From: Liolophura sinensis
Lineage: Eukaryota > Mollusca > Polyplacophora > Chitonida > Chitonidae
Assembly (NCBI RefSeq): GCF_032854445.1
Contig: NC_088299.1
Span: forward strand, 967,001 to 1,031,000
DNA length: 64,000 nt
Direction: 5' to 3'
The position numbers and the translations under genes were made by a program. Shown in pieces: positions 8,723 through 60,230 of this stretch; position 1 is the first letter of the stretch; each line of letters opens with the position of its first letter. The notes under the pieces were generated by a model, which worked only from the letters and a program-made list of their open reading frames with translations, was not told the DNA's origin and searched no databases.

Positions 8723-8955
8723 TTTCGCGGTCACGTGGCTACCTCATCTGCTTCGGGATTTCATGCTGTCACGTTTTCTCTTTATTTTTAAAAAATTATT
8801 CATTACTTTCATTTCATTAATGTTAATTCCAGTGTTAAAGATGGTGGAATCCAATACTAAAACACAAAATTAACAAAAATCACTCATTCTTTCTTTACAA
8901 CAGCCCCTGGTAGTCACATGACTTGAAGCGCGCGAAAGGTGGACCTTTAACAACA
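8723..8955. promoter_or_regulatory. Divergent RELCH/CDT1 promoter with E2F-like sites and an E-box
   Basis: Only 233 bp separate the two start codons, which point away from each other, so this segment must hold both core promoters or 5' UTRs. Seen: TTTTCGCGG at 8722-8730 and GCGCGCGAAA at 8929-8938 (reverse TTTCGCGC). Both fit the E2F consensus TTTSSCGC, and the second lies about 20 bp before the CDT1 ATG. A CACGTG E-box is at 8732-8737. CDT1 is an established E2F target in animals, so S-phase control is a reasonable inference. No TATA box was recognised and no transcription start can be placed. Confidence 0.6.
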
Positions 8956-11900
8956 ATGGCGCAGGCAAGAGTGACAGAGTTCTTCGCTACGAGAAAAAAG
9001 AGACGGGCTGAACAGCCGTCAAAACGGAGAAAAGTTGATTTTACTGAAACAGCACCTGCCCTTTCATTTGAAAATACAGGACCGGTAAAATTATCCAACA
9101 CTGACGTAAATGATGGATACAGAAACGTTGAAGATACAGTTGAAATTCCGGCAAAAGGTAAACAACAACAACATGTGCTCAAACCAGTCCAGACAGTTCG
9201 GGCAACCAGATCTAGCACAAAGTCGACCAGATCATCGTCTACGAACGCCAAGCAGAAGTCGAACACAAACACCAGACAGTCTACCAGATCACAGAAAAGT
9301 GACATCCCAAACATTTTCCAAAACTTCGCACGTAAACTTTCCCCAGCTGATGGTTTGGTGTCAGATGTCAAAGTGACGCCAACCGAAAGTAAAGCAGCAA
9401 ATAAAGTATTTTCAGAGGTGACAGATTGCTGGGATGATCATGACGGGTGTTCATCCAATACAGAAGAAAGTGCCTGCGCCACTCCAAAGACATCTCATGC
9501 GAAAGAAAAAAACGGACGTAAACGAAAGAAAGATCAGAAACTTACTGACGTACAGCAGTTGTTGTCCACACCATCTCAAGAAATCTGTCTACAGGAAAAA
9601 TCTTTGGAAAAGAAAGGCCATGCTAGTGTGAAGAAGAAACTGGTAATGCCTATGAAAGAAAAGGTAATTTGTTAAGAACTTGTGTGTCATAATTTTAATA
9701 CTCATCTGGTAAATGTATTTTGCTTGCAGGAATCCACCAGAATCTAGGTCAAATATGCAGGCATGGGAACAGGTGATAATAAAAAAGACTGATAAATTGA
9801 GGGCGCGAAAGCGCCGGAGCCGAGAGCGGTTGCGCTGGAGCGGGGGGAAAGCACGAGAGGGGGGCAGCGCCCACCTCTCGCCGTCGGGCGAATTTTAGAT
9901 GAAATAACAATGTTTCGTGACCATAGGTGAAAAAAAAAGTGTTTTTCTTGGATCTTCTTCAGTTACCCTAACATACAATAAAAGCCTTCAGATGTTAGTT
10001 ACTTTTCACAAATGTTACCTTCCAAATTGGCTGCTTTTTTTCTGGTCAATGACACACCTTCACTTCTGGAAAGTTCAGTCAGGACTTCACATATTTATAA
10101 ATTCACGGATAGGGCCATTTCCATAGCCTCACACTGTCACAACATTTTTACTGATTATTTACAACAATTGTATATACATATTAACACCGTCAGCTTCCCA
10201 TCCCATCAAACACGTTTGGCCTTCTTCCTCGGACTGGTATCTGTACCTGGTACCCCTGCCCTCTTCTTAGCTGTTAGCTTCTCCAGAACACCCCGAAGGT
10301 GAGCATTCCTAGCCCGTTTGGAAGCTTACCCTGCCAACAATACGGATTGCTTTTTGCTGATCGCCTTTTCTTGGGTTACGGAGTGTACAGCTTTTTTCTC
10401 CTCTAACGCCAAACGAGCCACCTCTTTCTCTTGTTTGTAATCCTTTGCAGCTCCCCGTATGGTCTGGACAACTTTCATATTGATAGGATCATGAAGGTAA
10501 TCATTTCTGCAGAAGTAATCAACAGAACATTTGTCAGCTGCTTTGAGAGTGTACTTGATAGTTTGTATGGCATTGAATGTGGGAATCTTCATTTTGGCTG
10601 AGTGACTGTCCAGTACGTAGTTCATCACACTGAATGAGCTCTCAACCTGTGGCCCATGAAAACACCCAATCAAAGCTGCTGTCATCTTTGACAATAACGG
10701 ATATTTGCCACTCTTGAACACTAATGTCCACCATGTGTCCAGTCGTGTATTGGGTTCATAAGATGGCAGACTGTCATCAACATGAAACCGCCTCACTTCC
10801 GAGGAAAACAAACCTTTCTCTTCTTTTTTCAGCACGTTTGTAACAATTGTAGGCAGGTTTTCCATGTACTTCATGGCAAGTTTATGGCCTCTGCATAATG
10901 GGTCAAGTGAAGACAGGTTTCTTAGGAGACGATTGCCAAATGGCATCTTCTTTAGTAAATAAGCACCACAAGCAATATAGGCAGCTTTGGCTTTCTTCTT
11001 GAAATCCTCTACAGCCCAGTCCTGTTTCTTTGCTTCTTTTAGGATTTTCTGTACCTTCTCGCCGCCAAAGAAAACCAGGTCATCTGATAGTTGATTATCC
11101 TTGTCAGAGAGGTTGAGCGACTTCAGCTGTTTAGAGGTTTTGTTGACCTTCTCTGGTGGGACGAAACAGGACAGGAAGTCTTTTGTCAGTTGCAACTGTT
11201 CATCGTGGAGTTTGTGGATGAGAGGATGATTTTGTGTGAAATTTTCTAAGCTCAGAAAGTGGGAAAACTGGTAATTACCTTGAAAAAAAATCGCAAATTT
11301 TTCTTAAACTTCAATTGGTTATGCAACATATGACAGTTATTCATAATTGACCTGTATACCAAGTTTCAGTAAAATATCAAAAAGTAAAACAAATATAAAA
11401 TTAGAAAGGATAGATAGCCTACAGAGATGAGTCAGACAGAGAGAGTGCAACCCTGAAGTAAAGTCCCCCGTTCTATTCCGCCGATAGGAGACTACTAACA
11501 CTGTTAGTTTATAATGTAATCTGTCTCACTATTCATAAACCAAATACTCAGATTTGTTGAATAAAAATATTTCGTTGTCTTGATCAATCAGTTCAAAAGC
11601 CTGCTGTTTTCGTAACCCGATATTCAGGGAGACAACTTTGGAGAAGTTCACTCAGTATCAAGCAGAGGAGACAGATTTAGAAATGTTATCTTCACTGTGT
11701 TTAAAACACGCAGAATATCACAAAAAAGTTACATTTACACATTTATAAAGAAGATATATTTCTGACTATTTGAAATTCAGGGAGTACTCGCATCTATCTT
11801 TGATCGATCGATACAATTTCTTTCCGGACGACGATGACCTTCACGGACCGACCTTCACGCACACGCGGTTGGCGATTTCCGGTTTAACGACTACCGAAAA

Positions 11901-14900
11901 CTGTACTCATTCTGGTCACATAGTCTCGAAGGCAGGTCAATCTCCACTTCTATTTGTATCATTTAGTTTCTGTACGTGTCTTATGGGATGATGGGTTGTC
12001 CGGATTGCGACAACCAAATATCACTTCAGTTTACGGCAGTACACAAATGCCCGATACGCGCAACTCGGGAAGTCGGAAGACCAGATGAAGTGAAAGATTA
12101 CAGATATTAAATAAAGTCAATGCAGGTTTGAAACTCTTGCTCAGGTCAGATTCAAGCTCTTCCCCCCCCCCCCCCCCCCCCACACTTTTCTCACCGGATT
12201 TATACGAATCTCAGAAACGACATTTTCATACAAAAAAAAGACGGAAAATTCCCATGCCTGAATATGGTAACACAAAGTATACAGTTACTCCAAGTTTTAA
12301 TATGTGGTATGTACAATGCCACAGTGATGGGGATTCTGGATGACGTGAATAAGCCCCATAAATCAAAAAGGCCAGTAGGACCAGTTGATTTGGAAATCAA
12401 TTGGTCCTTGCCCCATTTTTTAAGGCCCTGGCTTCTTGATAGAAAAAAGCACCACGCAGAGGCCAAATTTAAAAAATTATGTTTGATGTTATGCAACCGA
12501 CCCTTATAAAAGATCTCAGCCGAAATTCTTTTTTTGTGTTTTTCTGGATTATTTTATTTTATTACATTTTATACTTTTTTTCTTAATCTAACTGTTTGGA
12601 ATGTCACTGTTTATACAGGTAATGGTCGCTTATTTGAGATCTAAAATTTTCAAAAATCGGGTCTAAGGATGGCTTATATTTAGGCTACTGATACACGGAG
12701 GCTGCTGCCATCCTTAGCCAGGACGATGTGTGCACCTGATTATGACTTTGTATCTGTATTGGGCAAATATCTTGCTGCATATGCAACACTTAATATTCAA
12801 ATCCATTTAATACAAGTTCTGTTCGCAAGCTAAGACCTTTATGAACCTTTTGCAACCATTAATGTTGACCTTTATTCGATATTTCCACAGAAAATCTTAG
12901 TCGAATTCGAAAATAAGGTCTGCTTAGAGCTACTCACCGCGTGATGCCGTTGACCTGATTGACCTAAATTGGTATGTCAATCACGCTGATGTCTATTGAG
13001 AATTTGACATCATGTAAAGATATATCACAACGTCATTTAAGTGTTCCAATCTATAGAAAACTCAGCACGCGAAATGTGGACAACGATGTTGTTGTGAAAG
13101 CTAATTGTTGAGTGAAGTTTGAAGTGCCAGATGCCTTTGAGATGACAAGAAATTGACACTCTGACTCTGACTGAGTTGTTTTTTTTTTTTTGATATGCCC
13201 ACCACCTAAACATCAACCACCTGCACATGTGCCCCGCACCAAGACAATATATGCAGGTTTGTGAGTAGAGCTCAGAAAGCGAGATATTATGGAATTACCA
13301 ATTGTATACGCCAGGGAAGGAGATAAAAATTGTCCAGAAGACCATGAAACAGTGGACGAATATAATTTAATAAACTTTTGCCGGTGACACGCAGGTGTTT
13401 CCTATATCCCTTCTCTCTGTTCTCAAATACATATTTTACTGTGGATAGCTTCTTGGCTGTGAGCTAGACCTTAGCCAATTTCCTCCCCTGCTGTTGAACA
13501 AAGCCGGCCATATAGCACTTCGATGGGTATACGTATCCAATACCCGTAGAGCAAAATACCTATGAAGTGTTTTCACCCGTATCCAATTGGATACCTGTAA
13601 AATAGTTTTGCCATATTTTGGGGAGGGGTATACTTTACTGAACTGATGACCAGTGTCCTTGTGTTTCCATAGGGAGTGGAGATTTCAGATCAATTACTCA
13701 TTTTGTGACCGGTCCCGCTAGCACAGTTGGTAGAGCGACCGCTTTGGGAGTGGTAGATCCAGGGTCAATCCTGGATCGAGTTACATCCAAGACTTTAAAA
13801 GAGGAAGTTGCGGCTTCCTCGCTTGGCATTCAGCATGAAGGGGATAGTGCAACTACTGGTTGACCCGTATAAGTATAATAGCTCAAGCGAGGCAGCTTAC
13901 TTGCCTTCAGTAAGGCGTTTCAGTGAAGCAGCACTAGATAAAAGAGTGGTGGAAATCTGTCCTGCAACAAGGAGGCACATTACATGCACTCTAAGGATTT
14001 CTTCGTCGTCATATGACTGAAAAATTTTTAAGTATTCGCTCATTTTGTGAGGTAATCACGTAGGTTCTAGATGTAGCCCACTTACATAATTAAATTATTT
14101 CAGTCATGGGCTGTAGCTGATTGAGCTGCTGACATTTGTAATGGATTTGCTACATTCCCGTGACATTTGGACAGTAGCATGCCACAATAAAGTCTTTCCT
14201 CTAGTTTGAAAATTCCAGTGTAGATGCAATCAAATTTACAAGCAATTTACAACCGTTTAAAGCTGTTCCGATTCACGCCACTTCCGGTGTTTCATCGCTG
14301 CTAAATAGCCAACAAACTATTTTTACAAAAATGTCTTCACACAAACCTTTTCATAGCTCCATGATCATTTCATTGCAATCCTGTCATTAGTTTTGGATAT
14401 GTTTTGGTTTTAATCCTCTGTAGATGGTCAGAACCTCTACCCCTGTAGCTGTCAAAATGGCCATTGCTTTGTTGATCACAGGTGACATTTCTGACAATTT
14501 AATAGTTGCTCACTCATTGGCTCACAGAAAAGACTCAGCCAATGGGATAGTCTGTATCATTGTAACATACACAAATCTACTTTTCTTTCACTTTTAACGA
14601 CAGGCTGAAGATCGATCAAACTAAAGACTAATGAACTTCCACTTTGTTTACCCACCTTGCCCTAATTCATCAGAGCCTGTGTACACATTTATAGCCGTTA
14701 TTTTCTCTCCCTGTTGCTAAATTTAACTTGGCCCGCTAGACTTCCTTATCCCAACTCTCGCCATCACGTCAAAGATTTCACTATTAGCAGGCCAGCGGTT
14801 ATTTTGACCCTTGCTGTATTCATTATTTGTCATTTTATGCTAAAAGAATTTGCTTGTAGTGTAGGATAAAACCAAAGTTAGGTGATTCATTTCAAGATTA

Positions 14901-17900
14901 CAAAATTAGTTTACAGTTTATTTTGGTCTCTGTTCAACAGTATAGAGGCTCTAGTATGTTTTTAAAGTTACCATAGCGAATAACACCCATTCGAAATAAC
15001 GTGTGAAAAGTCGAACAAAACATGCATTATGGCGATGTTTATGGTCATACGTCCACTTATTGAGAATTGGAAATTTGAGAACAATTGGTCATTTTGAAAA
15101 TTATTTTTGTGACTTTCTTAAGGGATAATTTAGTTTATGGGAGTCATGGCGGGAATTAGATTCCCGTCGGAAGTAAACCCTGTATTACTTAGCCTGACAT
15201 TGCTCCGAAGATAGGTGTGGCAAATTTTGTTTCGCCAAGGATGGCCCCAAATCGGTGTCAGAGGATGACCCATTTAGAATTAAAAACCTGATGAAGTTGA
15301 TGTGGCAGTTTGTCTCGACGTTTTAGACAAAACCTTTACCCACCAAATATGTCTTAACGGCAGTGATTTTTATAGATATGTGTCTTGTATCTCTGAAGTT
15401 CAAATAAATCAAAAAAGTCCCTGTAATTTCACTGTCTATTTCGCCCCTGGTAAAACCACATGGTGAACAACACACCAGTATTGAGGTCATAAAAAGAAAC
15501 AAACTGAATGAAATATTGATGACCCTGCATTGTGACTGCTGGGGAACAGTAATGTGTAGCTGGCCATTTAACTGTCAGAGTTTTGAAGTCATAGGTATCT
15601 CTCTGCTCTCAGATTGTGAGTATATCACTCTTTATTTAAAACAGCTTGTTTTGTTGTTGTTGTTGTTGTTGTTCTTGTGTTCAAATGTGCAAACTTGTTG
15701 TCCCTGGTTTATCAAACATGTGGTTGTGTCAGTCATGCAGCATTGTTTACAGATATGGTAATATAAATTTAGGCATCTTTGTTTCATTGGTTCAAGTCTT
15801 GGTTTGACTGATTAGTTTCTGCCTACTTCTGCTCTGACTGACAGTGAGAGATTTTGACATGGAATCTTACCGCTTTCATAAATTCGCTTGAATCATTGTC
15901 TCCTTAAACCATTTTTTCTGTGTGTTAAGTTGTCCAGTACATGTGGAAGTACTGTATATTTCACATTTCGAAATCTGACCTAGTTATTCTCAATCTTTCT
16001 GTAGTCGTACAGACCTAATTTCAAATTTGTTTAAGGGATAATCCATTTTATTGCATAGCAAACTGTATGACTAAAGTAAATCGGTTTTTAGCACAGTGTT
16101 TTACGAGCTGTTTAGGGCTTTATATTCCCTTAATTTGGCCATAGTCAGTGTTGAGCACAAATAGCCAAAATCCCCCAAATTCGCAGGGGTTGAGGGAAAT
16201 TTGACGATAACCGACAGGGAAGTAAGCATTTTTTTCAACATCTAAGCACTTCATGTATTTAAAACAAAAGATGGAAATAAACCCTTTCGTTCCTTAAAAA
16301 GGTGCAAAATTGTGGACCATTTCTGCAGAATCTTTGATAAAAGACAGATTAAAAGAAAAAGAATATGACAACTCATGACAATAAACCATGACAGTATTCG
16401 GACTTTTATCCTCTGACAGCAATCTTTTATTGACAAAGTTGTGAACTATCACTCCATTAGTGAAGCTTAATGAACCTGTCTTTGTTGAAACCCTTGTCAA
16501 AGATATCAGTAACTTCATTTATCATCTCCTGGTTTAACCTGAGAGGAAACTGTAAGCAGATTGTGTTTATGCATTGTTGTTGCACTGAGCTTGCACAGTG
16601 TCGCTCAATTCTGTCAGTCTCGGCAACTGGTACCTTTTCCAACTATCATTCTTTACATACGAATCACATGTGCTTTGTCATTCCCAGCCTGTCAAACAAT
16701 GTATGAGTTACGCTGTCAAAATACGAAAGACACAGTGAAATGCTTTCAAATTACAATCAGTATGGCGCATTTCTTAAGGATTTAAATGCTGATTTCTCAG
16801 ATAGATGTATGTATTTTTAAGTTAATCTTAATTTGGGTATATTTATTTTGAGCACAGAATTATCGCCGAGATTTTGGTGGGGGTGGGGGGGATATAAAGG
16901 CCTGCCAGTTAATTGCATATTATAATAATAGATCAGCGACTGCATGGCCATGTGCCACTTATTTTGACCCCATCAGCTAATTTGAATAAACAATAAAAGA
17001 ATCACTTGAGGCAAAGGATCACACCAGACCGGAGGCAACTATAGGATTGTGTTAAACTGTACTTCACTCGTTGGCTTGTTTTAAGAACTCTGAAGGATTG
17101 TGCAATTTCATCGTCATATTTTTCCAAAGGTTAACGTACAGGAGTCAAAAACGGATGCCAGTCCTGCACCGGAGCAGCCATTAGATGAGAATGTTGATGA
17201 AGGCTCATCAGATGCAGTGCTACGCTTGGCTTCAACCATGTCTCCACCAAAAGCCATTTCTCCTCTCCCATTGACACCTCAGCAGGGCAGGTCAACTCGC
17301 AGTAAGAATGCTCCAGCTAAACCAACATCCGAAAAAATATTGGCAGCTATTGAGCAGTGCAAAGCCCTAACAAAAGACTCCAGTAGCAAGGAAGCTGTAA
17401 GTTGTGTCTTTGTTGCATGACTCAGTTGTAATAGCATAAAATATTTACTTGTGGGTGTTGATAAGCAAAGTTTAATTCTAGTGCCATTTGATTATTTGTT
17501 AAATTGAACCGCTTGTTTCTTAAAATATGTTTGTGAAGTCACTCAGATATGCCATTTACTAAAATAACTTCCAATGTACCACGTCACCTTAATGTCTACT
17601 TCATGGTTGCAGCCTCTGATAGATCCTACTGTTGTGAAGGCCAGATTAGCGAAATGTGGGAAGTTAGAAGAACTTAAAGCGCAACTGGCAAAGATGAACT
17701 CTGCTAAAGCCAAACTAAAGCCTAAGAAAGTAAAGGAACCTGAAGTTGCGAAAGCGGACTCTCCAAAGCTGAAACCATTTGACAGTCTAGACATTGAAGT
17801 TGAGAAAACCAAAGAGGCTGAAGGGTGAGTCAGACATCAATTATAATTCTTGTACATGCTATTGTCTCCTTAAACCAATCTTTCTGTGTGTTAATTTGTC

Positions 17901-20900
17901 CATCATAAATAAGTTTTTATTCTTATTCTTTATTCTTATTCTTTATTTTGACAGATATTTCTTCTTAAAGTTAAGTTTGTTAAATATCTTTTTTTATTTG
18001 TTTTTTTTTTAATTTTTTTATTAGATGCGTTTTTTAATTCTAGAATAAGAAATAAAAATTCAAGCAACCCTATTTTTTCTTACAGGGTCATGCTACACCT
18101 AACAAAGAAGTTTTTTAAGAATTGCCTTGTTAACAAAGTTCTTTCAGATGCATTATTTCGTAGAATGTTAAACAAGTAGGTACATGTGATATATCATTTA
18201 AATTTCAGTGCAGATTTGATGCATAATTTCACCATGCCAAATACACCATCTGAAAAGTAAAACGCTGTACAGTCTACATTTTCTATGCATTGCTTTGCGG
18301 ATATAAATGTACTCTTGTATTCTCAAGACTTAGCCAGCTTATTAGAATTGTGGCAGCCATTATGAGGTACGTAGCCCGACTGATGTACGTAATATAAACA
18401 AATGTGCTTGTTACGGTCAACAGAAAAAAGGTTCCCGCATATGAACGCTTCCATCACCTGGCTACCTCGGAGGCCCCTGCGCTTTCCCTGCCCTACAAGT
18501 ACAGAGTGTTAGCCGAAATGTTCCGCGGAATGGACACAGTGGTCAGCATGTTACACAACAGATCGGAGATTATCACCTTCTCCAAACTCAAGGTGGCTGT
18601 GCAGGCCATGAACAAGAGGTGTGTACATCAGATGAACAGGACATAAACTGCGGTCTCGGGCATCTTGTGCAGTGCCATGCAACATATTTAAAGTTCATCA
18701 GATTTTAAAATATATATTATAAATGAGAATTTTAAAACACAGAAGATTCATGCTGACCAAAGAGGCGACTTGGTGGACACTGCTCATTTATCCCAGCTTT
18801 CCACTAATCTTCCCTCAAGATAATGTACATGCATGTAGCTGTACATGTGAGAGAAGTTTATAACTGTGCAAATGTTGGTGGGTTACCCTGGTCCGCCATC
18901 ATGTATGTGAAAAACTCGTCAGTATGGCATTCAAGAGCAATTAAATAAACCCAATACGTTTTGAATTTGTCTGTTCCATTCTCATTCACTGTTCTAATGA
19001 ATGTACATGTAACTCACTATATAAAATATGACTACAAAATAAACCTTAGCACATAGAGATTTTTTTAAATCAAATTTAGTTGGTTTTAAATGACTGCTGT
19101 ATTTATTTTATTCTGTGTGCAAAGTGATGTGCCAAGGTGAAAAAATATTTTTTAATTTTAGAAACTTTGAATTGAAGCATGCGGGACAGATTAAAACAGT
19201 TTTTCCTCATGGGTACATCTATCGGCAAGAGAAGGGTTTGCCTTGTTATGGTGGGAAGACCTCTGGCTATCAGCTCACAGTGGAACCAAATTTTCATTTC
19301 AACACAAATTCTGGTACATATTTTATATACAATTTACTGTCATAGAGCATTAGGCCTACATAGCTTTTCTTTGGTCCCCTGCCACAAAAGCGATGAGGGC
19401 AATGTGTCTGTGTCTGTATGTCTCACATTTCAGTCTGAAGTCTGTCTTTCAGCCAAGATATGGTAACAGACTATTTAATGTGTCCAAACAGGCAGGTTAA
19501 AAGGGACTGACATTTGAGGAACCTACATAGCATGTATGTTTAAACAATGAATGTTTTGAATTGTTTGCTTTTGATGCTTTTTAATTCCCACAGGTCAAAC
19601 CTGTGGTATGTGGCCAGTGAAGGGAGTGGAAAGTAGTGGCCGCTTAGGGCAGGTGGCCACATAACACAGGCTGGGTAAAAGTCAAGACATAACTTATGTT
19701 TCTTAGTATAACCAGTTGGTATTAATTTGTATCAATGTTTATGCCTACATACATTTAATAGATATATAAATCTCAAAACAATTTAAGCAGTGTTGGTTAT
19801 CAGGCTAAAGACCTATACTGGTGTTTACACGCAGTGTAAATAAACAAGCGCTTACAACCCGAGTTCCACATCATCGCACGTGTGACTTGACCACTTTTCC
19901 CCCCCAACATTTCGTTGGCCATTTCCTTGATTAGATTTTCTTGATGCTTTGTTGGCATGACAGAGACCATGTGGGGATTTGCATGTGCTGTTTGGATTAC
20001 ACTGTATCAGTTATTTTCCTGTAAAGATTAGTGGTCAGCTGTTGCCAGGTAAATTTTCCACCTGGCAAGTAGAAAAAAAAAAAATTAAAAAATAGCACAT
20101 CAGGATGCTGGGAGTGTGGGCAGTATGATACGACTCTTTTCCACCATCTTGTAAACAAATCAGGAAGTTACCCCTGTGAACAACTCATCTCTGTGAAGCA
20201 GGATAATTGCATCTGATGAGGGTTTCTCCTGGGTTTCCTTCACCTGCTTTTACACAGAGACCTTACTGCCAATAGTCTTGAGCATGGTGTAAAAAAAAGG
20301 TGCCAGAAAAAGATAGAAATAACACATTTTGTGTGAATAGTGTCAAGGTTTTTTTTTAACATTATAGACATTATAAACGGACAGCAGTGCAATTTCAACT
20401 CCAACAGACATGACAGATAAAGGTTTATTGTCTTCATGCACAAACAGCTTTTATAATAATGTAAATGAACCTATGACTTGACAGGTGATGATGAGATGGT
20501 GAAGGCGGCCAAGGTGACCTTCACCCCGAGCCATCTGCTGCAGAGAAGAGGATTCTTCCACAACAGACTCATCGCCATAGTGAAGCGCTATCATAGGGTG
20601 AGTAGTGCTCGTTGTTAACAATGGCTGCGAGAAGCTTTGTGCCCGTTGTTAGGTACACGTGACAAATGTAAAAGTCTATACATCAGACGTTCACATTATA
20701 TGATCTTTGTAATAGTTTATGTGCAAGAATTTCAACAGAACTCAGCAGTAAATGTAAAGCTAGCATGTAGAAATTGGCTCTTGAAAGTGGATGATGGCAT
20801 TTGGATATTAAACACGATAACAGAGGAAATACCTGTGGTTGTTAAATTGTTGAGGGTAGCTGGTTGTGGCCAAGTGGTCAAGATGCTTGCCTTTTTATCC

Positions 20901-41200: not shown

Positions 41201-44200
41201 ATAAATGCAAAACTTCAGCTCAATACATAAAGAACTGAAATTGATAATTCGGTAATTTTTATTTCACCATTGTGAATGGTCATTAATATGCTCACAGAGC
41301 ATCAGTGATGGAACACCCCATGATGCAACGCAATGTTTTAGCTTTATATGTATGTAAAACTTCAGGTCAATACATTTTAAGACACCAACCCTTACATTTT
41401 GTTTTAAAATTGATTCCTGTACACAATACACTAAGTCAGAAATTCATTAACTTATGGTACTTTATATGTACACATTCAATCAATGATGGATTACCCACTC
41501 CTGCTATTGTGCTCTACACATGTGCAAACCATGAGCTCAATGCTTGAAGTACTTTTTAAGATACATCACTTTAACATTACTTTCTGTATTATTCTCAGGG
41601 TATGACATAAGCTTCACCTGTACAGGTGAGCTAAAAATCATACTTTGTTCCCAGAATCCTACATCCTTCATGATTGCTAAGTGGTGCACTGATCTTTTAA
41701 CATTACGTTACACCAAATGGAAGTGTACAAAGGTAACTAATAGCAACTTACTGATTTATCATATTTGGAGAAAGATCGCAAAGCAGATGTTGAACATTTG
41801 CTAAACCAATAGAAAAGCACTGTAGAAACCAGCGTTAACCTTGTAAATGCATTTTAAACACACGTAACATGAGTATTAAAGAGTACAGTCTTCAACCTGT
41901 CAAAATTATACAAATGAATGACCAGTAAAATTTAATGATAACCTCTTTCATGCCCAATACAACAGTGTCATTTTCTGCCAAGGAAGTACTACACAGGGTG
42001 TGGTTGTATGCACATGTACAGATTCACGCAGGGAAGACAAGGCATCTCCTCAACACTTACCCATCTGGACAGATCACAGAGCAAGTTGACAAAGATGCCA
42101 GAGAGTTGACTACGCCGAGTTTCAGACGTACAGGCCCGGGAGACCACCATAAAGCACTCTGCACAAGCTTTCCTTACTCCCCACACTCCATCTTCACACA
42201 GGTAATAGAACTTTGGTAACTGAAAATCACAAAAGATACGCTTTCAACACTACCTACCTTTGGACAACGACGACCAAAAGAACAAAAACTTTTCTTATGT
42301 ATGCAAACATTTAAACCTTATATGTGCTACAGCAGGCTCCTTACTTGTAAAGTATGAAGCTGGTACTTCCATGGTATCTTTAGATTTCACATTTTTTGAA
42401 AAACATTTGAAATATTTTGGAAACATATTCCTTTGATTTTATGCTGATGTCCTTTGCCCAGATGCTGACAGGCCCTGGAGTTAACACAGGGACCAAAATC
42501 TCATTTGTATTTCTTGAAAAAAAAAATGGGACGTGGCCCTTGCCAAAAACCATAATTCTGCTCACCAGCTGTTCTTCCACACTTTCTGGTCCCACTACAG
42601 TACATATATCACCAAAGTTGGCAGCACAAACCTGAATAAATGAAGGAGGAGACAACTATTATCTCACACTTTAACATTATTTCCACCATAGATCCTAGTG
42701 CCGGTCTTTCAATCAGAAACACATATACGGGAACACTACCTCAAAGTTAAGTCAACGCACATTATTACAACAGAAAAAACACCGGCCTGACCCTGCGCAT
42801 CTAGACCTAAGGCCAGAAAACTCTACCGAAAGACAAAATCTTAGGCTTGAGTCTGGACAGAATCCAAAAATATCCTTTAAACACGGCTGAAACAATGCAG
42901 CCAACTCCTAATTCCTGATCAGTAGTGCTTATGTTACAGTTTATTTAAGATGAACTCCTAGGACTAAGAAAGCCGTCCTCACCTTTCTCACATGAAATAA
43001 GCTGTCCGTACACATTTCACAGAATCTTGGTAAAAATTGAGCTTCAGTCATTTCTCTACCCAACAGAGGGGCCATTTTACTCATAAGCTGTTGGGGACAA
43101 CAAACCAAAACCAGTTACATAACAAATGAGAACTTTGAGAATTTAATACTGGTGTAAGTTAACTGATCAGTACTATACACAATCCAGTCAAGTTTAAACA
43201 ATGACAACCTAGTAAAAAAGTTAACATTCAGGACAAAGTTGATGTAAAAATTATCAAACTAGTTCCTGAACCAGTCAGAATTTACACAACTGAAGTTTTT
43301 CACGCCATACTCAACAGATTGGTATCAGCTGCATACAACAATATACCCATGAATAATCTAGCTAAGTGTTTCTGTGTGCGACTGAACTCCTCCACGCAAA
43401 GCCTCTGTGCTTTAGAGATCTCTCCTCTCATCAAAGCAGGCTGTGATATGTTGATATCAAACCACATCACAACCACCTGGATGAGGGGGAATAACTCTTG
43501 TCAACTTAGTAATCCTCAGCCTGGGAGCAGCTGCTTCTTTCAGATTTTCACTTCAGTCTCAAACATTCTGTTGGATGATTTTTGCAGGCGAATTATACTT
43601 TAGAATACTGACATAGGAGAGGACAGAGCTCATCAAAGCTGGCTGTGATATGTGACCATGATAACACATCACCACCACTTTGATGAAACCATCCTTTCCT
43701 GCTCTGAACAACCATCAAGAAAACCAAGGCAGTTTTCAGCATCAGACAATAGGGCCTAGTTCTGTCATGAAGTCCGATTTTTTTTTTTTTTTTTTTGAGT
43801 TAAGAAATTCAGTTGTTAGTTCCAACCGGAGGCTCATCAAAGCTGGCTGTGATATGATTTTACTGTAACATGTCACAGTCAGCCTGATGGGCCCCCGTAT
43901 CAGGAAATGACCCGACAGCCAGTACATCCAGTTACATCTGAGCACACCAAACAAAAACCCACTCAAAAACATGTTTTCATTGGACACCTGAACCTGGTAC
44001 AACAAAATGCTGAAACCACTATCCCACATCACATTATTACAGGTTGGTGTTGTAATATGTTACCTGGGACTCTTAGTCATTGGCATTACAGCTACGGGTA
44101 TACAATTTGGTAACAAATAACGTCTCCCCAGCCCCCAACCTTCTGGTGACCTGTGGCCGAGTTACTGAATGAAGCTGTAGTGAGATGGACAGGTGGAGAG

Positions 44201-47200
44201 GAATGGCAGGCCAACAACTGGTAAGGGTGAGACTAGCAGGGTAGAGAGCGAGCTGGGTGGGGTGGGTATGTATGGAGCAGGTTAGGCCGCACCAGCTCAT
44301 CAAAGCAGGCTGTGATATGGGCTATGGTCAGCATGTCACAGCCACTTTGATGACTGGTACAGCCAGCAGATATAGCATCCAAGATGCAAGCACTAGCTCA
44401 CCAGCCCTTCACAATGCTCCCATATGTGTACAGAGGATGCACCACAAGTTCATACTCAAAACGCTGTCACGCAAGGGTACATACAAGCAGGCGAAGGAGA
44501 TGTCTGGGGTATAACATACACTGCAGAATGAATTAGCCATCAGCTGCAAGAAACTTTACCACAGCGAATCCACATGAAGCTAAGAAACAGCAGAACAAAC
44601 ACTTGGCAAGACGGATGTTACATTTTCACTAGGTCTAAGATTCCAAATCTGTCAGACTCTTAAATAAAGTAACACATTACCATATTTGTGTAGATCATCT
44701 GGGTGTGAACAAAGGGTTTATGCGGCTCCAATCTCAATTAACAAAAACTCAATCTGCAGGTCCTAAAGACAATCCAGTTTTTTCACTCAACCTAAAACAT
44801 TCGCAAGCTTTTCTGGAAATAAAGACAGATGGCTAAATTCTGAAAGTTGGGTATATCAGGTAAAGCATGATAACAGATTTGAATCACTTGACAAGCTGTT
44901 ATATTCCCTTGCCCTCTATTACAAAGACACAAAAATGTCCTGTGTTGCTTTATTTTCGTCAGCTTCCTTGTGGCTTGAGACAGCCCATTGGACATTAGAG
45001 ACCGTGAAACTGATCCAAGCAGGCTGTGATATGTTCGATACCAGCACATCACTGCCACTTGGTCAGACCCACAGACACAAAGTTGTACATCAATTTCATC
45101 TTGTTCTGGACATGCCACCAAAACGCCCAGTCCTATTTGCCCTATTAGGTTAGTAGCATGGTAGCAGCAGGTAAGACATTGCAGTTAGTTTCACTATGTA
45201 CAGTAAGTGGTAAGCTCCTTGCATGTCCGGCACAACCCCAGTGGAGAACAGGAAAGTCTAGGAAGAACGTATCAAGGCGTGACAGAGCTAAATAGCAGAA
45301 GTCTGGACTGGATAAGCTGTAGGTGGTTGTTGTTGTAATGAAAGCTGAAAACTGAAGGTCCTGGCTCATCAAAGCTGGCTGTGATAGAGCTAATGAGCCG
45401 GCTACTACATGCCAGCATTGACGTCCACGACATTCATAAGCTACCATCTCCGCGCCCTTCACCAAAAGCTGGGTTAGTGCCTGAAAGCAAGCTCTCCTGG
45501 TAAAATCCCCAAACCACCTAACTGGATCAGCAGTCTACAAACCTTTTAATAAGCATACATGCAGTTTTCTAAGCCACTTTTCTTGCAATTCTACATGTAT
45601 TCAGACAATCTCAAGTTCTAAATGCAGGTGTACGGTCGGCAAGCCATGCCCTATGCAAAAGACATGCTAGTAAGATGAATCTGCTCCCAACATCTCACTA
45701 CCCATGTCTTTCACATAGAGACCAGGCAGACACACTTGCGAGCCTTGAACCATTGGATAAAATCTCTGCAGCTTGGAGGGAGCCTACACTATGCAAACGT
45801 AACCAACTTGCCAAACATAAGTGATATGCCCCATCAACATTTTTTACGAAATGCCAGTTTGTTAAAGTAAGTACCTTTTTCATGGTCCACCGCTATTTGC
45901 AAGCATTTATACACTAGCACTGGTATGTTAGGATACTTACAGCAACTGCTTCTGTACGGAAGTCATCTGGGAACTGTCTGGCCTGGCCAAGTCTGCTATA
46001 ACACCTACCACCTGTTCTTCTATATCAGCTGAAACATTAAGGTGATTAATACAGATCATTTTGATACTACCTGTACCCCAAAGACAAGTACGGTAACTTT
46101 TAGAAAATCAATTTTTGTGGTGAAAGATATGTTTTCTTTATCGGACTTGAGTTAACCTTGTAACCATTTTATTAGAACGACCACTAAGTGAAATAATGGA
46201 ACATAATAATGAGTACTTACTTCTGTCAACTAGTTCTTGCTCCAAGAGAACTAATAAAGCGGCTTGACTTGTCTTACGAACCTGAAAAAAGGAACCAAAT
46301 TTTGGTTAAGCAGCACATTAAGAAACACATAAATGAAGATATCTTTCCTTTACTTCCTTGATGATAGGGTTACACCAAGAGTTTCTCTGGTACCTCAAAA
46401 GGAAAAACTCGCGGGTAATGCACTAAGTGCAAGATAATTTTCCATTGCAACACTCAGGTTTTAAACCAAAGGATACAATTTCACTAAAATAACGAAGCGC
46501 ATCTTCAATGCCAATTGTAAATGCATTTAACTACAACACCCACCAACACAGCGTTGTCTCGCATGTGTCCCAACAACAATTCCATGAGCTTTTATTTACT
46601 TATTTGACACTCATAGTACAAACTAGTCTGTTTGGCTAAACAGAGAACATCCTCTTACAACATACATCACTTCTGACACGTGGGCATATGTTACTCTGGG
46701 CTGTAACGTGGGAGGTGAATACAGTTGTCAACTTTTTCACTGTTCCTACTGTTTTGATAAATAAAAAAAAAAACTTGGAAGATGCCTTAGTACATTACCT
46801 GGTTATTCATATCATTCAAATATTTGACCACCATCGGTAGTAAATAGGTAGGTACTGAGTCTTGGAAGATATGCCTCTTCTCCAAACAATACATGGCCAC
46901 GTGTGGAACTTGTTCCATCAGTTCAGATCTGACGGTGGCTTCTGTCAAAACACAATCACATACAACAATTAAACCTACTGTACGTATGCCTCAATGTATT
47001 TCCTTGGAGTTTGTAACAGTTTACATGCACAATCTGTTGGATTTAACTGAAACAATGCTTTATCATCAAGCGAATGATTACACAGCTACTAATATTCCAT
47101 ACAAATTCCACCAACATGACCATAATACAAGTCCATGTTTTATATTTCTGATTATAACCGACTTGTTTATTATCTTATTTGATTGGAGCTTATGCCGTAC

Positions 47201-55980: not shown

Positions 55981-56835
55981 AATCTGCACACGTTTAATAC
56001 CACTTTACCATTATTTTGGTGATTCCACAATGGTACCTCAAAATGACAACTTCTGTAATACTCCCTCATTGGAACACCGTCAACTAATGCAGCAGAAATG
56101 ATGCCTAAGAGACAGGATACTGGCATGGGATGATCAGTACTTGGCTAATTCTTTTGTGCTGAGTGATTTTTAAGCCTTGGAAAGCCCTTAAGATTTCTGA
56201 TTTTGTAGTCTTAATTTCCATGCGCAAGTATGGCTTGACTCAGGATTTAACTGCTAATTCCTGCTTACAGTGTGGACTGGTGGGCACGTCCATTTGATAA
56301 GGGAGTTTTCTCTCTTATCAATTATTGATTATTATTGAATTCTTTTGTTACTAAAGTCATGTTGTACCATATGACTTGTCAAAAATGGTAGGAAACTTTT
56401 GATAAAGTTTAGTTATGAATTACCTGTCTTGTTGAGTTCTGGATGCACACTTAAGTGACACCAGTTTTCTTTAGGAACTTCCTATGTTCACAAATGCTCA
56501 GTTCTCCATGTTTCTCGTTTGTCTACTCTAACCTACTTTTTGTGAAAATATTTCAGATGCCTATGCCACAGTGAATGTAATCAAAAATAGTTGCATAATA
56601 TTTCTGACAAGTCATGTGGTATAATAGGACTTTTGTACCGATACCTTTTTTTACCTGTACCGATAAGGGTTCTCGCCTATTAGATGAGGTAATAATGATA
56701 TGATCAGACGTTTCATAAATTGAAAGCACTGATTTCATGTCTGGTATTACTACCTTCACCTTTTCACACCTTGTAGTTTGTTTTCAAAGCTTTGACTGTA
56801 ATAAATCTGCTTTCCTGTTTTCAGAAACTTCAGTC

Positions 56836-57135
56836 ATGTCAGAATCAAATATCTATGATGACCAGGTCCATAAACAAGAACAGAGGACTTTCCTGAGGGA
56901 GAGGTTTTTACGGCTCCTGACCTCCCAGAAAGGTGCCCCAGTACAGTTCCAGCTTTATGAACGCACAGCAGTACAAGGCATCCTTGCTCCTGTAGACATT
57001 GACTTTGCCCACATTCAGGTCACTGATCTGAAGACTCCCATGGGGGTGGTGCCCAATGCTGTGTTACGCACATCAGACATCCTCTCCATGAAGATACTAT
57101 GTGATACTAAAACTGAGCAAAACCTGCCATCATGA
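56836..57135 (+). CDS. GEMIN7: GEMIN7, Sm-like component of the SMN complex
   Basis: Gemin7 pairs with Gemin6 as a surrogate Sm dimer and helps the SMN complex assemble Sm rings on spliceosomal snRNAs. The whole coding sequence is one exon of 99 residues (human 131; the difference is the N-terminal extension). An acceptor (TTTTCAG, ending 56824) precedes the exon, and the first ATG after it (56836) starts MSESNIYDDQVHKQEQ. Residues about 22-32 form the conserved helix LRERFLRLLTS. The Sm-like strands follow: PVQFQLYERTAVQGILA, IDFAHIQVTDLKTPMGV, AVLRTSDILSMKI. This matches the family order RERYLR, FTLHEG, then LQTPIGV and LRCSDIIS. It is divergently placed from PPP4R1, about 3.8 kb away. The 5' UTR exon was not found. 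Frame and fold look intact. Confidence 0.93.
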   Translation: MSESNIYDDQVHKQEQRTFLRERFLRLLTSQKGAPVQFQLYERTAVQGILAPVDIDFAHIQVTDLKTPMGVVPNAVLRTSDILSMKILCDTKTEQNLPS

Positions 57136-59861: not shown

Positions 59862-60230
59862 GAACCGGCCCGGATAGCACAGTTGGTAGAGCGTCCGCTT
59901 CGGGACCGGTAGATCCAGGATCAATCCTTGGTCGAGTCACACCTAAGACTTTAAAAGAGGAAGTTGTAACTTCCTCGCTTGGCGTTCAGCATGAAGGGGA
60001 TAGTGAAACGACTGGTTGACCCGTATCAGTATAATGGCTCGGGCGGGGCGGCTTACTTGCCTTCGGTAAGGCGTCTCAGTGATGCAGCACTAAATAAAAG
60101 AGTGGTGGAAATCCGTCCTGCAACAAGGAGGCACAATTACACGTGCATGCACCCTAATGATTCCTTCGTCGTCATATGACTGAAAAATTGTTGAGTACGA
60201 CGTTAAACCCCAAGCACTCACTCACTCACT
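59862..60230 (+). mobile_element. tRNA-derived SINE (type B) with 12-bp target-site duplications and CACT tail
   Basis: The tRNA-like head GATAGCACAGTTGGTAGAGC and the B-box region GGATCAATCCTTGG are followed by the body GACTTTAAAAGAGGAAGTTG, then ATATGACTGAAAAATTGTTG, AGTACGACGTTAAACCCC and an (ACTC)n tail. TACATGTACATG flanks it at 59850-59861 and 60231-60242. This is the longer and better preserved of two clear copies; the other is at 13709. Confidence 0.88.

Follow-up and report, generated by a model that had tools for sequence, protein, structure and literature searches.

The window analysed in this study, a 64,000-nucleotide stretch of the genome of the chiton Liolophura sinensis (NC_088299.1, positions 967,001 to 1,031,000 of the forward strand), carries seven microRNA (miRNA) hairpins between positions 43422 and 45719. 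Rfam searches and folding placed all of them on the minus strand, with miR-71 first and six miR-2 hairpins after it, as a first-pass annotation made from the letters of the window had proposed. Judged from sequence, this locus is almost certainly the chiton representative of the miR-71/miR-2 cluster that protostomes conserve, and it sits in sense orientation within an intron of a PPP4R1-like gene. In addition, an array of miR-2-type units was located elsewhere in the genome, in an intron of what is probably the ATAD5 gene. The assembly was published as that of Liolophura japonica (PMC11068029), and the species has since been corrected to Liolophura sinensis (PMC12441733).

The window cluster and its host intron

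The miR-71 precursor (45649 to 45719, minus strand) scored 55.4 bits against the Rfam family RF00832 (mir-71; cut-off, 50 bits) and folded at -38.1 kcal/mol with a z score of -6.38. Its 5' arm carries TGAAAGACA..., the string by which membership in the miR-71/miR-2 cluster was judged. The predicted miR-71-5p, TGAAAGACATGGGTAGTGAGATG (45713 to 45691), lies on that arm, where the first-pass annotation had put it, and is identical, letter for letter, to bgl-miR-71-5p of Biomphalaria (PMC12261956). The only exact match to this string in the genome is the one in the window; two others were found at three mismatches.

Downstream of miR-71 and on the same strand, all six miR-2 precursors have the seed AUCACAG on the 3' arm. 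Hairpin 1 (45360 to 45428) scored 22.6 bits against RF00047 (mir-2; cut-off, 45.5 bits) at an E value of 0.51, with a fold z score of -2.95 and 18 of its 22 mature bases paired; its predicted mature 3p strand, TATCACAGCCAGCTTTGATGAGC, starts at 45386. Hairpin 2 (45005 to 45069; 37.9 bits; z score, -3.40; 19 of 22 mature bases paired) would yield TATCACAGCCTGCTTGGATCAGT from 45031; it is with this type that the ATAD5 array clusters in the tree. Hairpin 3 (44291 to 44357) scored 62.1 bits, folded at -41.6 kcal/mol (z score, -6.91), and has the predicted mature strand TATCACAGCCTGCTTTGATGAGC from 44317. The mature string predicted for hairpin 1, TATCACAGCCAGCTTTGATGAGC, recurs from 43854 in hairpin 4 (43828 to 43894; 46.3 bits; z score, -6.37) and from 43650 in hairpin 5 (43624 to 43690; 63.4 bits; z score, -5.90). 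Hairpin 6 (43422 to 43488; 45.4 bits; z score, -5.29) is predicted to give TATCACAGCCTGCTTTGATGAGA from 43448. Four of the seven hairpins (mir-71 and three of the six mir-2) exceeded their Rfam cut-offs, and hairpin 6 fell 0.1 bit short. Matches to mir-67, mir-2944, mir-155, mir-8536, mir-994, mir-5, mir-11, and mir-2_2 were below the cut-off and overlapped the same hairpins, and these were set aside as cross-matches.

When folding was carried out, as the first-pass annotation had suggested, all seven sequences formed hairpins, with energies of -28.6 to -41.6 kcal/mol and z scores of -2.95 to -6.91; for each of them, either none or one of 200 shuffled sequences folded as well as the real one. 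The claim that every miR-2 copy bears ATCACAG on its 3' arm opposite a complementary 5' arm also held: in an 80-nucleotide (nt) frame, 18 to 20 of the 22 mature bases were paired with the 5' arm in all six, whereas the 18 ATCACAG sites elsewhere in the window had no more than 15 paired. ATCACAG occurs 24 times in the window against an expected 13.15, a count equalled in none of 100 shuffles. A sliding fold and a shuffle test of the mature string were run on the stretch from 43088 to 45941. The intron contains six copies of the pattern TATCACAGCC[AT]GCTT, which was absent from 1,000 dinucleotide shuffles of the intron. In the sliding fold of the minus strand (84-nt segments with a single loop and 24 or more pairs), the seven hairpins took ranks 1 to 7, rank 8 (-31.7) overlapped hairpin 3, and the next segment reached -24.3. 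No further independent hairpin of such strength was found in the host intron on the minus strand, the plus strand not being scanned. Fold energy alone is not decisive, since comparable segments with energies down to -38.7 were found in 20 kb of other minus-strand sequence.

All seven hairpins lie in sense within a single intron on the minus strand (43088 to 45940), again as annotated. This GT-AG intron is 2,853 nt long, with GTAAGT at 45940 and CAACAG at 43088, and it is bordered on the same strand by an upstream exon of 88 nt (45941 to 46028) and a downstream exon of 105 nt (42983 to 43087; LMSKMAPLLGREMTEAQFLPRFCEMCTDSLFHVRKV). Chosen exon pieces of the host gene, when joined, match the 65-kDa scaffold chains of PP2A (HEAT repeats) at an E value of 6.9e-24. 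Furthermore, a long acidic exon has a match to WRNPLPNID that is below the cut-off, a combination that we take to fit PPP4R1 better than PP2A-A. The host gene appears to encode a HEAT-repeat protein, most likely PPP4R1.

From what is established of miRNA biology, Drosha and Pasha would most likely cut the pre-mRNA of the host gene, or else a primary transcript that shares its intron, into seven pre-miRNAs, from which Dicer would release miR-71 from its 5' arm and the six miR-2 products from their 3' arms. Through their common seed, the six miR-2 products would be expected to repress mRNAs that carry a matching site.

Additional miR-2-type units in the genome

The genome searched comprises 632 contigs with a total of 609,464,459 bases. 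Rfam scoring covered the best 60 of 146,767 mir-2 candidates and the best 60 of 78,985 mir-71 candidates, and the genome-wide counts are therefore lower bounds. Pattern and Rfam searches together gave at least 27 miR-2-type units outside the window, 26 of them in one array and one between MELK exons. No second mir-71 was found in the genome, either among the best 60 of the 78,985 Rfam candidates or by string search, and none linked to the array was present among the Rfam matches in the 20 kb around it.

The array lies on C1, a chromosome-size scaffold other than that of the window and, at 96,433,062 bases, the longest contig of the genome, in a GT-AG intron of 4,516 nt (C1:1448829-1453344), with its 26 units on one strand and in sense to the host. 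Downstream of the intron, at distances of approximately 2.2 and 5.2 kb, lie exon pieces with matches to solved ATAD5 (6.8e-11 and 1.8e-13, respectively), and the exons on either side of the intron are joined in frame by splicing. Because the ATAD5 matches do not include these flanking exons, and a large upstream reading frame has no Pfam match, ATAD5 is the probable host gene, not a proven one.

A fuzzy scan covering both strands, in which up to five edits were allowed, supplied 22 of the array units, and four were added to these. By a rule that was set after the values had been seen (intact seed, 16 or more of the 22 mature bases paired, and a z score of -2.3 or lower), 18 of the 26 are good hairpins with AUCACAG on the 3' arm; the other eight fail it because the seed is altered, pairing is lost, or the fold is ordinary. 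Sixteen units appeared in Rfam at E values up to 1. None exceeded the RF00047 cut-off of 45.5 bits (best score, 44.5 bits), which is why we call them miR-2-type units and not members of the family.

Nine of the units follow a 199-bp periodicity (Tandem Repeats Finder, 9.1 copies, 95%), and six of these nine are identical over 80 nt. This near-identity of the tandem copies suggests that homogenisation in the 199-bp part was recent. The string TATCACAGCTGC..., which has one C fewer after the seed than TATCACAGCCTGC..., is found in 16 of the 19 units from position 1450169 on, and TATCACAGCCTGC... in five of the seven preceding units. There are exactly 13 genomic copies of the 22-mer TATCACAGCTGCTTGGATCAGC, all within the array. 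The idea that the array is part of a dispersed repeat was rejected: the 132-base spacer of the 199-bp unit gave nine matches, every one of them in the array.

Conservation was assessed on 11 of the 26 units, namely, the 18 good hairpins minus seven near-copies from the tandem part. Identity among these 11 was 96% in the 22-nt mature arm, 67% in the 5' arm, 62% in the loop, and 57 and 60% in the flanks, for which random letters of similar composition, aligned in the same way, give a baseline of 55 to 56%. The six window hairpins gave a matching profile, with 94% for the mature arm, 66% for the 5' arm, 56% for the loop, and 56 and 54% for the flanks. Finding units through the mature string favours a conserved mature arm, yet 17 of the 22 units listed by the fuzzy scan have no edits, although five were allowed.

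Pairing was counted over 20 of the 33 units (eight weak and five identical ones were excluded), with the structure taken from window hairpin 2. Paired cells made up 85.2% of the total, compared with 27 to 39% when the partner was slid by one to three columns and 82.8% in column shuffles, none of 500 of which attained the observed value. Cells changed on both sides numbered six, versus 1.7 in the shuffles, and again none of 500 reached six. These changes are confined to one of 21 pairs, however, and 442 of the 500 column shuffles also have one such pair; covariation is therefore weak support.

A tree of 27 of the 33 units, from which six degenerate ones were excluded, joined the 20 array units to window hairpin 2 (98/94). 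Support for the array by itself was 85/71, and the MELK copy fell with window hairpin 4 (89/83). Because the rows are short, the mature arm is nearly fixed, and the bootstrap is unsettled, we treat this tree as a lead, not as proof. In the array, the miR-2 of the cluster seems to have been amplified separately, and the simplest story would be that a copy of hairpin 2 landed in the other gene and then grew in tandem.

The copy outside the array is a single mir-2 hairpin on the minus strand (C1:34515634-34515700; 55.1 bits), situated between two MELK exon pieces on the same strand; the joined exon pieces match solved MELK at 1e-124. SMC4, the host in the oyster case, was considered and rejected for this copy, the exons on both sides being those of MELK. 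Other candidate sites, judged by eye from their folds, were found not to be mir-2 hairpins: an exact 16-mer at C3:3461902, the sites C1:19929952 and C6:58909555, and the repeat at C6:73782449-73783426. The repeat in the region C6:73781900-73784000 is spaced at close to multiples of 32 bp; it includes ATATCACAGCCTGC strings and has no mir-2 fold.

Alternative accounts of the cluster and neighbouring features

The window cluster itself is an ordinary addition to a known arrangement. The protostome miR-71/miR-2 identity that the first-pass annotation had assigned to it is supported by its family, strand, order, and arm placement and by its position in a single intron. Some points pull the other way. 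The mir-2 hairpins 1 and 2 are well below the Rfam cut-off (22.6 and 37.9 against 45.5 bits), and hairpin 1, which adjoins miR-71, is the weakest of the six and has a diverged 5' arm. The upstream exon (45941 to 46028) switches reading frame once, with the frame of its 3' part being the one that joins the next exon, as a result of either an assembly error or a real variant. The host gene is only probably PPP4R1, the match among solved structures being to its relative PP2A-A. The same low scores, together with the fact that hairpin 1 is the sole long branch flagged in the miR-2 tree, would suit a cluster that is only partly active, in which hairpin 1, and perhaps hairpin 2, is decaying and no longer processed. 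However, both hairpins retain an intact mature string with 18 and 19 of the 22 mature bases paired, and we consider such decay unlikely.

Expression of the cluster might also be independent of the host pre-mRNA and driven by a promoter of its own inside the host gene, since intronic miRNAs can, in general, be expressed independently (PMC2835999). The position of the cluster, in sense within one intron, argues against this arrangement, as does the oyster, where mir-2 expression follows that of PPP4R1 (largest r, 0.93; PMC4138081); a separate promoter is thus somewhat unlikely. Finally, because the hairpins are nearly palindromic, some precursors might function from the antisense strand as well. 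On the plus strand, hairpins 3, 5, 6, and 4 gave mir-2 scores of 44.9, 34.5, 30.8, and 29.4 bits, respectively, and the miR-71 hairpin gave a mir-71 score of 31.4 bits, all of them below the cut-offs. Good hairpins tend to score on their reverse complement too, however, and function from both strands seems very improbable.

Elsewhere in the window, the plus strand carries a probable gene for the replication licensing factor CDT1 (8914 to 18646; PF08839, 2.6e-16 at 18398 to 18646), to which we take the exon at 8914 to 9675 to belong, and a Gemin7 gene (56719 to 57135; PF11095, 2e-27). Two borderline transfer RNA (tRNA) matches on the same strand, at 13719 to 13774 and 59868 to 59939 (29.7 and 29.2 bits; cut-off, 29), are possibly tRNA-derived repeats. 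A 325-codon open frame on the minus strand (10326 to 11303) had no Pfam match at an E value of 0.01.

Comparison with other animals and implications

A close likeness to the window cluster is found in the oyster, in which six mir-2 hairpins lie in an intron of PPP4R1, as six lie in the PPP4R1-like intron of the chiton (PMC4138081). The two differ in that miR-71 has no occurrence in the main text of that paper, and in the location of further copies: the additional oyster mir-2 is in SMC4, whereas those of the chiton lie between exons of MELK and in what is probably ATAD5. In C. elegans, the only mir-2 lies in ppfr-1, the orthologue of PPP4R1, so that the host is probably shared but the copy number is not (PMC4138081). 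Although mir-2 is intergenic in most of the animals studied, the PPP4R1 location has been proposed as ancestral for the oyster and worm mir-2 (PMC4138081). The window cluster would extend this PPP4R1-hosted arrangement to a chiton and so support it as the ancestral state in molluscs.

The ATAD5 array is reminiscent of the mir-2 loci of spiders, a scorpion, and the horseshoe crab (PMC4987109) and of flatworms (PMC4405270), which likewise have more than one such locus per genome and growth by tandem duplication. Unlike the chiton array, which has 26 units and no mir-71 found with it, these loci usually have mir-71 copied together with mir-2 and hold at most six mir-2 per cluster, as reported for chelicerates (PMC4987109). 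The mir-2/mir-13 clusters of Drosophila resemble the array in being without mir-71, which was lost in that genus, but have three members each (PMC3763532); spitz houses the mir-2 cluster, and CG7033 houses mir-13 (PMC4138081). No report of the ATAD5 array was found among the open literature listed for chiton microRNA, mollusc mir-2 expansion, ATAD5/mir-2, and PPP4R1/mir-71, a scope outside which most subscription literature and MirGeneDB fall. The word "microRNA" is absent from the main text of the genome paper (PMC11068029), and the available text of PMC8915122, PMC12506671, and PMC12005716 contains nothing on the array.

We regard the following proposal as evenly balanced. A single miR-2 type from the PPP4R1 cluster may, within the chiton lineage, have been duplicated into the S-phase gene ATAD5, where it grew inside an intron to 26 units, 18 of them well folded, with a changed mature string in 16 of the 19 units of the 3' part. 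With up to 18 precursors per transcript, the array would act as a miR-2 dosage amplifier tied to replication, and miR-2 would have come to lie repeatedly in sense introns of proliferation genes. If this is true, the hosts in the chiton would be ATAD5, MELK, and PPP4R1, those in the oyster PPP4R1 and SMC4, and that in C. elegans PPP4R1.

The array would be an extensive expansion of a single conserved miRNA at one locus, in which identical, diverged, and broken units stand side by side, and it would offer a natural series in which to study how miRNA copies arise, are homogenised, and decay, as well as the effect of their dosage. In insects, the mir-2 family represses reaper, grim, and sickle (PMC9170749); in the pearl oyster, miR-2c is reported to repress EcR, RXR, and Runt and to act on shell formation (PMC12691275). 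On the strength of the pearl oyster case, we speculate that miR-2 dosage could bear on the formation of the shell plates of chitons.

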